From Streptomyces sp. T39 (GTDB lineage Bacteria > Actinomycetota > Actinomycetes > Streptomycetales > Streptomycetaceae), in contig NZ_RDBP01000012.1 of the NCBI RefSeq assembly GCF_008042045.1, forward strand, positions 1,365,729-1,429,728: a stretch of DNA of 64,000 nucleotides, read 5' to 3'. Within the stretch, counting starts at the first letter, position 1. Each line of letters begins with the position of its first letter. A program made the position numbers and the translations under genes. The notes beneath the pieces were generated by a model, which had not been told where the DNA came from, ran no database searches, and saw nothing but the letters and a program-made list of their open reading frames with translations. Below, in pieces: positions 35,763 to 39,003 of the stretch.

Positions 35763-37241
35763 TCAGGTCTGCGCCATGTCGACGAACCGCGAGTAGTGCC
35801 CCTGGAAGGCCACGGTGATCGTGGCCGTCGGGCCGTTTCGGTGCTTGCCCACGATGATGTCCGCCTCGCCCGCGCGCGGCGATTCCTTCTCGTACGCGTC
35901 CTCGCGGTGCAGCAGGATCACCATGTCGGCGTCCTGCTCGATGGAGCCGGACTCACGCAGGTCGGACACCATGGGCTTCTTGTCGGTGCGCTGCTCGGGC
36001 CCTCGGTTCAGCTGCGAGAGCGCGATCACGGGGACTTCCAGCTCCTTGGCCAGCAGCTTGAGGTTACGGGACATGTCCGAGACCTCCTGCTGGCGGCTCT
36101 CGGCGCGCTTGGACCCACCGGACTGCATCAGCTGCAGGTAGTCGATGATCACGAGCTTGATGTCGTTGCGCTGCTTGAGGCGGCGGCACTTGGCCCGGAT
36201 CTCCATCATCGACAGGTTGGGGGAGTCGTCGATGTAGAGGGGCGCGGACGACACCTCGGGCATCCGGCGGGCCAGGCGCGTCCAGTCCTCGTCCGTCATC
36301 GTGCCGGACCGCATGTGGTGCAGGGCGACGCGGGCCTCGGCGGACAGCAGACGCATGGCGATCTCGTTGCGGCCCATTTCGAGGGAGAAGATGACGCTCG
36401 GCAGGTTGTGCTTGATCGACGCCGCGCGGGCGAAGTCCAGTGCGAGCGTCGACTTGCCCATCGCGGGACGTGCGGCGATGACGATCATCTGGCCGGGGTG
36501 GAGCCCGTTGGTGAGGGAGTCGAAGTCGGTGAAGCCGGTGGGGACACCGGTCATCTCACCGCTGCGGGAGCCGATCGCCTCGATCTCGTCGAGGGCCCCC
36601 TCCATGATGTCGCCCAGCGCCAGATAGTCCTCGCTGGTGCGCTGCTCGGTCACGGCGTAGATCTCGGCCTGCGCCGAGTTCACGATCTCGTCGACGTCGC
36701 CGTCGGCGGCGTATCCCATCTGCGTGATCTTGGTGCCGGCCTCGACCAGGCGGCGCAGCACGGCACGCTCGTGAACGATCTCCGCGTAGTACGAGGCGTT
36801 CGCCGCCGTCGGGACGGACTGCACCAGGGTGTGGAGATACGGCGCACCGCCGACCCGGGTGATCTCGCCGCGCTTGACCAGTTCGGCGGCGACGGTGATG
36901 GGGTCGGCGGGCTCGCCCTTGGCGTAGAGGTCGAGGATCGCCGTGTAGACCGTCTCGTGGGCCGGCCGGTAGAAGTCGTGGCCCTTGATGATCTCGACGA
37001 CGTCCGCGATGGCGTCCTTCGAGAGCAGCATGCCGCCGAGGACGGACTGTTCGGCGTCCAGGTCCTGGGGGGGCACCCGTTCGAAGCTCGGAGCGCTGTC
37101 CCAGCCGCTGCCGTCCCTCCCTCGGTCGTGCCTGTCCTCACGGCCACCACGGCCCTCGCTGCCGCGCCGACGGGAGGCAGGGAGGCGGTCGCCGGGGCTG
37201 TCCGCCGCCCACGGATCGTCCAGAGGCTCGGAGATGCTCAC
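35763..37241 (-). CDS. dnaB: Replicative DNA helicase DnaB
   Basis: Hexameric 5'-3' helicase loaded at oriC. 492 residues with an actinobacterial Arg/Gly-rich N-terminus (residues 20-45), the N-terminal dimerisation domain, then the RecA-like core with Walker A ARPAMGKST (about 256-264) and Walker B LVIIDYLQL. The start GTG 37241 (MSISEP) is preferred over GTG 37250 because GGAGGAG is 9 bases upstream of the former and touches the latter. Its leader holds a DnaA-box cluster. No intein was seen. Confidence 0.97.
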   Translation of the reverse strand: MSISEPLDDPWAADSPGDRLPASRRRGSEGRGGREDRHDRGRDGSGWDSAPSFERVPPQDLDAEQSVLGGMLLSKDAIADVVEIIKGHDFYRPAHETVYTAILDLYAKGEPADPITVAAELVKRGEITRVGGAPYLHTLVQSVPTAANASYYAEIVHERAVLRRLVEAGTKITQMGYAADGDVDEIVNSAQAEIYAVTEQRTSEDYLALGDIMEGALDEIEAIGSRSGEMTGVPTGFTDFDSLTNGLHPGQMIVIAARPAMGKSTLALDFARAASIKHNLPSVIFSLEMGRNEIAMRLLSAEARVALHHMRSGTMTDEDWTRLARRMPEVSSAPLYIDDSPNLSMMEIRAKCRRLKQRNDIKLVIIDYLQLMQSGGSKRAESRQQEVSDMSRNLKLLAKELEVPVIALSQLNRGPEQRTDKKPMVSDLRESGSIEQDADMVILLHREDAYEKESPRAGEADIIVGKHRNGPTATITVAFQGHYSRFVDMAQT

Positions 37242-37389
37242 CCGTGCCACCTCCTCCCGTCCGCTCAGCGGACCTCTGTCGTGGCACTCTTTCTACGGCA
37301 CGACACTGACAAATCGACTCGCTCGATGCCGCTGCGGCGCGTCGGGCGACGGTTCACGGTAGGCCCCCGGAAGGCCTCAGCCAATCTCG

Positions 37390-37478
37390 TTATCCACAGG
37401 CTGTGTGGATGAACGACCAGATGCTGTGGAGAACTCTCCGCATCCTGTGCACGGACCGGGGGACAGCACTGTGGACAA
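37390..37478. promoter_or_regulatory. Cluster of four DnaA-box-like sites
   Basis: TTATCCACA at 37390-37398 (plus), TCATCCACA as the complement of 37404-37412, TTCTCCACA as the complement of 37425-37433, and TTGTCCACA as the complement of 37470-37478. The last is the streptomycete consensus and the first is the classic E. coli box. Density is well above chance for a high-G+C genome. Confidence 0.7.
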
Positions 37479-37629
37479 CATCGGAGATCACCCAAGAAAC
37501 ACCGGATGACCTGCACCGTTGCCGTCCACCGGCTGTGGGGGAGAAAAACTTTCCCGCTCGGGCCAAGATCAGAACAAACGGGCCCGGAAGGCGCTCGCCC
37601 ACCGACGACTTGTAAGGGATGCAAGACAA

Positions 37630-37659
37630 TTGCGTCTCTTACCTGTGGAAGATTAGATT
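37630..37659 (+). promoter_or_regulatory. Leaderless promoter of the MATE gene
   Basis: TTGCGT (37630-37635), 18-bp spacer, TAGATT (37654-37659), then ATG 7 bases later with no Shine-Dalgarno. Confidence 0.5.
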
Positions 37660-37665
37660 GACCGT

Positions 37666-39003
37666 ATGACTCAGGCCCCCGCGACCGTCCGCGCCCATCG
37701 GCGCCGGCATGACCGAGAGATCATCGCCCTGGCCGTTCCGGCCTTCGGCGCCCTCGTCGCCGAGCCCCTCTTCGTGATGGTCGACAGCGCCGTCGTCGGC
37801 CATCTCGGCACCCCTCAGCTCGCCGGCCTCGGGGTCGCCGCGGCACTTCTGATGACCGCCGTCAGTGTCTTCGTCTTCCTGGCCTACGCCACCACGGCGG
37901 CCGTGGCGCGACGCGTCGGTGCGGGCGACCTCCGGGCGGCGATCCGCCAGGGCATGGACGGCATCTGGCTGGCGCTCCTCCTCGGCGCTGCCGTGGTCGC
38001 CGTGACCCTGCCCGCCGCTCCCTGGCTCGTGGACGTCTTCGGAGCCTCGGAGACCGCGGCCCCCCACGCCATCACCTATCTGCGCATCTCCAGCCTCGGC
38101 ATCCCCGCCATGCTGATCGTGCTCGCCGCCACCGGCGTGCTGCGCGGCCTCCAGGACACCCGCACACCGCTCTACGTGGCGGTCGGCGGCTTCGCCGCCA
38201 ATGCCGCCCTCAACGTCGGACTCGTCTACGGGGCGGACCTCGGTATCGCGGGATCCGCATGGGGCACCGTGATAGCCCAGTGCGGGATGGCGGCCGCCTA
38301 TCTCTTCGTGGTCATCCGCGGCGCACGCACCCACGGAGCCCCCCTGCGCCCCCACGCGGCGGGCATCCGGGCCAGCGCCCAGGCCGGCGTACCGCTGCTG
38401 GTACGCACCCTCTCCCTGCGCGCGGTCCTGATGATCGCCACCGCCGTGGCCGCCCGCCTGGGCGACACCGACATCGCGGCCCACCAGATCGCACTCTCCC
38501 TGTGGAGCCTGCTCGCCTTCGCCCTGGACGCCATCGCCATCGCCGGACAGGCGATCATCGGACGCTATCTGGGGGCCGGGGACTCGGAGGGAGCCCGCCA
38601 GGTGTGTCGCCGCATGGTCCAGTGGGGCATCGTCTCGGGCTTCGTCCTCGGCCTTCTCGTGGTCCTGGCCCGCCCCCTGTTCATCCCCTTGTTCACCGGG
38701 GACCAGGCGGTGAAGGACACCCTGCTGCCCGCTCTGCTGGTGATCGCCGTCTCCCAGCCGATCGCCGGGGTGGTCTTCGTCCTCGACGGCGTGCTCATGG
38801 GTGCGGGGGACGGCCCGTATCTCGCCTGGGCGATGCTCCTCACCCTGGCGGCCTTCGCGCCCGTCGCCCTGCTGATACCGGTGTTCGGCGGCGGGCTCAC
38901 GGCGCTCTGGTGGGCCATGACCCTGATGATGACCGTACGTCTGGTGACGCTGTGGTGGCGGGCTCGATCGGGCCGGTGGATCGTGACAGGCGCGACCCGC
39001 TGA
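37666..39003 (+). CDS. MATE-family efflux transporter
   Basis: 445-residue, twelve-helix multidrug and toxin extrusion protein of the DinF-like subfamily. The first helix pair (IIALAVPAFGALVAEPLFVMVDSAVVG) carries the conserved Asp used for cation coupling. It exports cationic compounds using Na+ or H+. In S. coelicolor the equivalent gene also lies next to dnaB. Transcription probably starts at the ATG. Confidence 0.92.
   Translation: MTQAPATVRAHRRRHDREIIALAVPAFGALVAEPLFVMVDSAVVGHLGTPQLAGLGVAAALLMTAVSVFVFLAYATTAAVARRVGAGDLRAAIRQGMDGIWLALLLGAAVVAVTLPAAPWLVDVFGASETAAPHAITYLRISSLGIPAMLIVLAATGVLRGLQDTRTPLYVAVGGFAANAALNVGLVYGADLGIAGSAWGTVIAQCGMAAAYLFVVIRGARTHGAPLRPHAAGIRASAQAGVPLLVRTLSLRAVLMIATAVAARLGDTDIAAHQIALSLWSLLAFALDAIAIAGQAIIGRYLGAGDSEGARQVCRRMVQWGIVSGFVLGLLVVLARPLFIPLFTGDQAVKDTLLPALLVIAVSQPIAGVVFVLDGVLMGAGDGPYLAWAMLLTLAAFAPVALLIPVFGGGLTALWWAMTLMMTVRLVTLWWRARSGRWIVTGATR

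Follow-up and report, generated by a model that had tools for sequence, protein, structure and literature searches.

What does a cluster of DnaA boxes do outside oriC, in front of the gene for the replicative helicase? The question is raised by the intergenic region between dnaB and a divergent gene for a MATE-family efflux transporter in Streptomyces sp. T39, within a window of 64,000 nucleotides (G000:C24:1365729-1429728; positions are those of the window unless preceded by C24, the contig). With a probability of about 0.62, we read the cluster as a DnaA-responsive regulatory array of the dnaB promoter region, which would probably activate the gene and also hold some DnaA near oriC. The array itself is a real, conserved element, and the kind of site to which it belongs is already known.

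The DnaA-box array

The genes and boxes of the region are the following:

35763-37250, minus strand: dnaB, replicative DNA helicase (TIGR00665, 551 bits against a cut-off of 385)
37390-37398, plus strand: DnaA box TTATCCACA, exact, promoter-proximal, at the same position in 33/33 streptomycete leaders
37404-37412, minus strand: DnaA box TCATCCACA, one mismatch (motif scan)
37425-37433, minus strand: DnaA box TTCTCCACA, one mismatch (motif scan)
37446-37454, minus strand: weak DnaA box CCGTGCACA, 3-bp gap to CTGTCCCCC (streptomycete leader alignment)
37458-37466, minus strand: weak DnaA box CTGTCCCCC, 3-bp gap to the perfect TTGTCCACA (streptomycete leader alignment)
37470-37478, minus strand: DnaA box TTGTCCACA, exact, a listed high-affinity box of S. 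coelicolor
37534-37542, minus strand: degenerate conserved box-like TCCCCCACA, adjoining AAGTTTTTC at 37543-37551 (weak evidence)
37644-37652, minus strand: weak DnaA box TCTTCCACA, distal to the others, where the MATE promoter is presumed to lie (leader alignment)
37666-39003, plus strand: MATE-family efflux transporter gene, divergent

A DnaA box was defined as a 9-mer with at most one mismatch to TTRTCCACA. The initial annotation had reported four such 9-mers within 89 bp upstream of dnaB; all four are present, with its coordinates and strands, and the gene that they precede is DnaB by TIGR00665. The count of four stands, but the array is larger, the weaker CTGTCCCCC, CCGTGCACA and TCTTCCACA having been missed in that first reading. 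As read from an alignment of 22 streptomycete leaders, the array runs, in the direction of dnaB, through TTGTCCACA, CTGTCCCCC, CCGTGCACA, TTCTCCACA, TCATCCACA and the opposed TTATCCACA, and the three weak boxes are found repeatedly across these leaders. CTGTCCCCC and CCGTGCACA are further supported as real because a Kitasatospora genome (L086) carries one-mismatch boxes in the corresponding places, at +12 and +24. E. coli DnaA favours pairs of boxes spaced by 2-3 bp (PMC11317965).

The whole window holds nine box matches, which is the shuffle level for its length, and four of these fall in the array. In the 415-bp dnaB/MATE intergenic region, the four boxes compare with 0.13 in shuffles, and 0 of 20,000 shuffles reach four. 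The locus therefore presents what defines a DnaA-box cluster, namely several 9-mers with at most one mismatch in about 100 bp, above chance and outside oriC. The same intergenic region contains two other strictly conserved blocks, GCAGGTCA and AAGTTTTTC (37505-37551), and a conserved inverted repeat before the MATE gene, GTAAG-N21-CTTAC (37612-37642), which resembles the site of a regulator.

The predicted promoter and leader of dnaB

On the dnaB side, the array is followed by three predicted elements:

37379-37384, minus strand: predicted dnaB -35, TTGGCT (conservation only)
37356-37361, minus strand: predicted dnaB -10, TACCGT, with a 17-bp spacer (conservation)
37251-37349, minus strand: predicted 5' leader of dnaB; two hairpins are conserved, with little covariation

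The TTATCCACA box ends 5 bp ahead of the block TTGGCT-N17-TACCGT, which we read as the predicted dnaB promoter. The arrangement of box, 5-bp gap, TTGG, 17 or 18 bp and TA-NGT is strictly matched in 28 of 33 streptomycete leaders, and the remaining five differ solely in having TACGGT. The -10 pattern of Streptomyces promoters is TANNNT. A sigma-70 scan did not call the dnaB promoter, TTGGCT being no consensus match, so that the call rests on conservation. Given this predicted layout, the proximal box TTATCCACA would be centred near -45, where activators often bind.

Of the two leader hairpins, one adjoins the ribosome-binding site, and a double change that keeps pairing was seen in 2 of 12 pairs. 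A regulatory RNA in the dnaB leader is not claimed, on account of these 2/12 covarying pairs, of a folding of the window's own leader that is no better than that of shuffles (z -0.72), and of an Rfam search of the leader that returned no RNA family.

Conservation across the class Actinomycetes

The initial annotation had made conservation in orthologous dnaB leaders a test of its proposal, and the boxes pass it. When the class was sampled evenly, with 70 genomes spread over about 30 families, at least one box was present within 900 bp upstream of dnaB in 66/70 genomes and at least two in 60/70; the mean is 3.4 boxes per 900 bp, as compared with 0.16 over the remainder of these loci. Four of the 70 have no box there at the threshold used. 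Likewise, almost all of 80 named actinobacterial dnaB loci have upstream boxes, and 500-bp upstream stretches contain 3.3 boxes where dinucleotide shuffles give 0.13.

The trait belongs largely to the class Actinomycetes, since at least two boxes occur in just 5 of 42 genomes of other actinobacterial classes (0/23 and 5/19). The five (L326, L332, L333, L337 and L344) may reflect old inheritance or convergence.

Position relative to oriC and other box clusters

The array had been placed outside oriC, correctly: dnaA lies at C24:1437345-1438367, and the oriC boxes beside it (C24:1438677-1439239) are 35 kb from the dnaB array. As a candidate oriC, which would be recognised by flanking dnaA and dnaN and an unwinding element, the array was rejected, its neighbours being dnaB and the MATE gene. 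Multi-box clusters were counted in the 800 kb around the window, a span that contains seven groups of at least three boxes: two are oriC, and the other five all lie within 95 kb of it. Two of the latter are three-box groups at C24:1357630-1357683 and C24:1488304-1488352; one precedes an RNA 2'-phosphotransferase-like gene and one a dehydrogenase E1 operon (genes named by eye).

A four-box cluster at C24:1460499-1460700 adjoins the 3' end of crgA (C24:1460741-1460992, minus strand). Boxes are present at this site in 47 of 50 class genomes, at least two of them in 40/50, with a mean of 2.5 against 0.064 per 420 bp. The cluster appears to match the "cryptic" DnaA site Rv0010c-Rv0011c of M. tuberculosis, because the two share a gene order, which we take to be ppiA, a membrane protein, the site and crgA in M. 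tuberculosis too. The authors of the M. tuberculosis study noted no counterpart of Rv0010c-Rv0011c in other species (PMC7738170).

The box cluster between pheA and serS (C24:1345928-1346208) was also considered as a class-wide site and rejected: it is present in 5/5 Streptomyces examined, whereas other families are without it. Four mycobacteria have another group of three boxes, which lies 5' of pheA at a distance of 4.6-7.4 kb and is probably the Rv3843c site.

We give even odds to a broader arrangement: an ancient pair of Actinomycetes sites flanking oriC, made of the dnaB-coupling array and the crgA array, to which lineages add a third cluster of their own. The crgA array would then correspond to the site that is linked, in M. 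tuberculosis, to tolerance of isoniazid, and probably to H69 of S. coelicolor, while the third cluster would be pheA-serS in Streptomyces and the one near Rv3843c in mycobacteria.

Proposed control of dnaB and alternative explanations

The initial annotation had suggested a tie between the boxes and dnaB expression, and three lines of evidence now support it: the boxes follow dnaB in about 30 families, one of them abuts the conserved predicted promoter, and mycobacterial data point the same way. DnaA binding was mapped by IDAP-seq in M. tuberculosis and by ChIP-seq in M. smegmatis, and the bound places comprise oriC, rpmH-dnaA, Rv0057 upstream of dnaB, Rv0010c-Rv0011c and Rv3843c-RVnc0040 (PMC7738170). 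The DnaA variant I282T shows weaker binding upstream of dnaB together with less dnaB mRNA, a correlation in one mutant (PMC7738170). The DnaA regulon of Caulobacter also includes dnaB (PMC8203912).

In the mechanism that we propose, DnaA would bind the array cooperatively, starting from the perfect TTGTCCACA and its two weak neighbours, each spaced by exactly 3 bp; binding would extend via the further boxes to TTATCCACA, abutting the predicted -35. At that point DnaA would touch the RNA polymerase and increase transcription of dnaB, and the supply of helicase would thereby track the level of the initiator. The same array, 35 kb from oriC, would retain a small number of DnaA molecules. The steps differ in strength. 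Binding of DnaA to the array in this species is very likely, and control of dnaB by the array is likely, helicase production being probably tied to DnaA because the array is class-wide and stands directly against the predicted dnaB promoter. Activation rather than repression is less certain, and is favoured by the promoter layout combined with the mycobacterial and Caulobacter data; the timing of initiation may also be affected.

Titration of DnaA, which the initial annotation had offered beside control of dnaB, is plausible for the array as one of its effects. As the whole explanation it is unlikely: the array would be a datA-like or D78-like sink that binds spare DnaA and lowers the frequency of initiation, its adjacency to dnaB being incidental. 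The S. coelicolor clusters near oriC do repress untimely initiation (PMC4585315, PMC5742627), the five T39 clusters counted outside oriC in 800 kb are all within 95 kb of it, the other class-wide cluster is placed 3' of crgA rather than in an obvious promoter, and titration fits the observed pattern too because dnaB is near oriC in the complete genomes examined. Yet a sink need not remain at dnaB, nor share its orientation, and 179 boxes point with dnaB against 52 in the opposite sense (a p-value for this bias is only a guide because the boxes of related genomes are not independent); nor need it hold a fixed 5-bp distance from the promoter, as seen in 33/33 streptomycetes.

Rather improbable is the opposite sign of control, in which DnaA represses dnaB, as happens to dnaA in several bacteria. 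That autorepression is the classical example (PMC8203912), and an array adjacent to a promoter may also block the polymerase; against this, no strong box overlaps the predicted dnaB -35 or -10, and the mycobacterial mutant with weaker binding has lower, not higher, dnaB mRNA. Very improbable is that the array governs the divergent MATE gene, ahead of whose start the conserved weak box TCTTCCACA lies by 13 bp: the strong boxes are on the dnaB side, and the boxes accompany dnaB under either neighbour, persisting in most other families, where rplI replaces the transporter gene upstream. Chance or neutral sequence has a negligible probability. Short motifs do turn up in every genome, and the nine matches of the window are at shuffle level, but the clustering (4 against 0.13) and the conservation counts refute it.

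Should activation of dnaB through the array prove true, the initiator would itself determine how much of the helicase that it loads is supplied, across a class to which both Streptomyces and the tuberculosis bacterium belong, and Streptomyces could serve as a model for DnaA sites relevant to mycobacterial drug tolerance. Moreover, the old class-wide sites (dnaB, crgA) are set apart from the lineage-specific ones, and this division shows where to cut in order to separate titration from the control of transcription.

Comparison with known systems

Relative to the literature surveyed, whose coverage was partial, three things are new: the conservation of the array through the class, the layout at the predicted promoter, and the crgA match. 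No priority is claimed. The nearest known site is that of M. tuberculosis and M. smegmatis, on the same side of the same gene, where TTGTCCACA and one-mismatch variants occur in four mycobacterial genomes. Its box number and spacing are unlike those of the streptomycete array, and there is no divergent MATE gene; furthermore, the conserved promoter block next to the streptomycete array was not recognised in the mycobacterial leaders compared.

The H69, H24 and D78 clusters of S. coelicolor are likewise groups of DnaA boxes outside but near oriC, three in number, whereas five pass the threshold in T39 (800 kb). Judging by cosmid names, we take the dnaB array to be probably the counterpart of H24, the crgA cluster to be likely H69 and the pheA-serS cluster to be a possible D78. 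The initial annotation had cited these three clusters but had missed that the dnaB array is probably equivalent to one of them. The deletion phenotype described in S. coelicolor is reportedly that of D78 rather than of H24.

The datA locus of E. coli and the clusters of B. subtilis also lie outside oriC and restrain initiation. What marks a datA or DARS site is that, helped by IHF or Fis, it stimulates the hydrolysis of DnaA-ATP or the release of ADP; datA acts together with IHF, by hydrolysis. Lastly, in the distant phylum of Caulobacter, dnaB has predicted DnaA boxes upstream and is expressed in a DnaA-dependent manner (PMC8203912).
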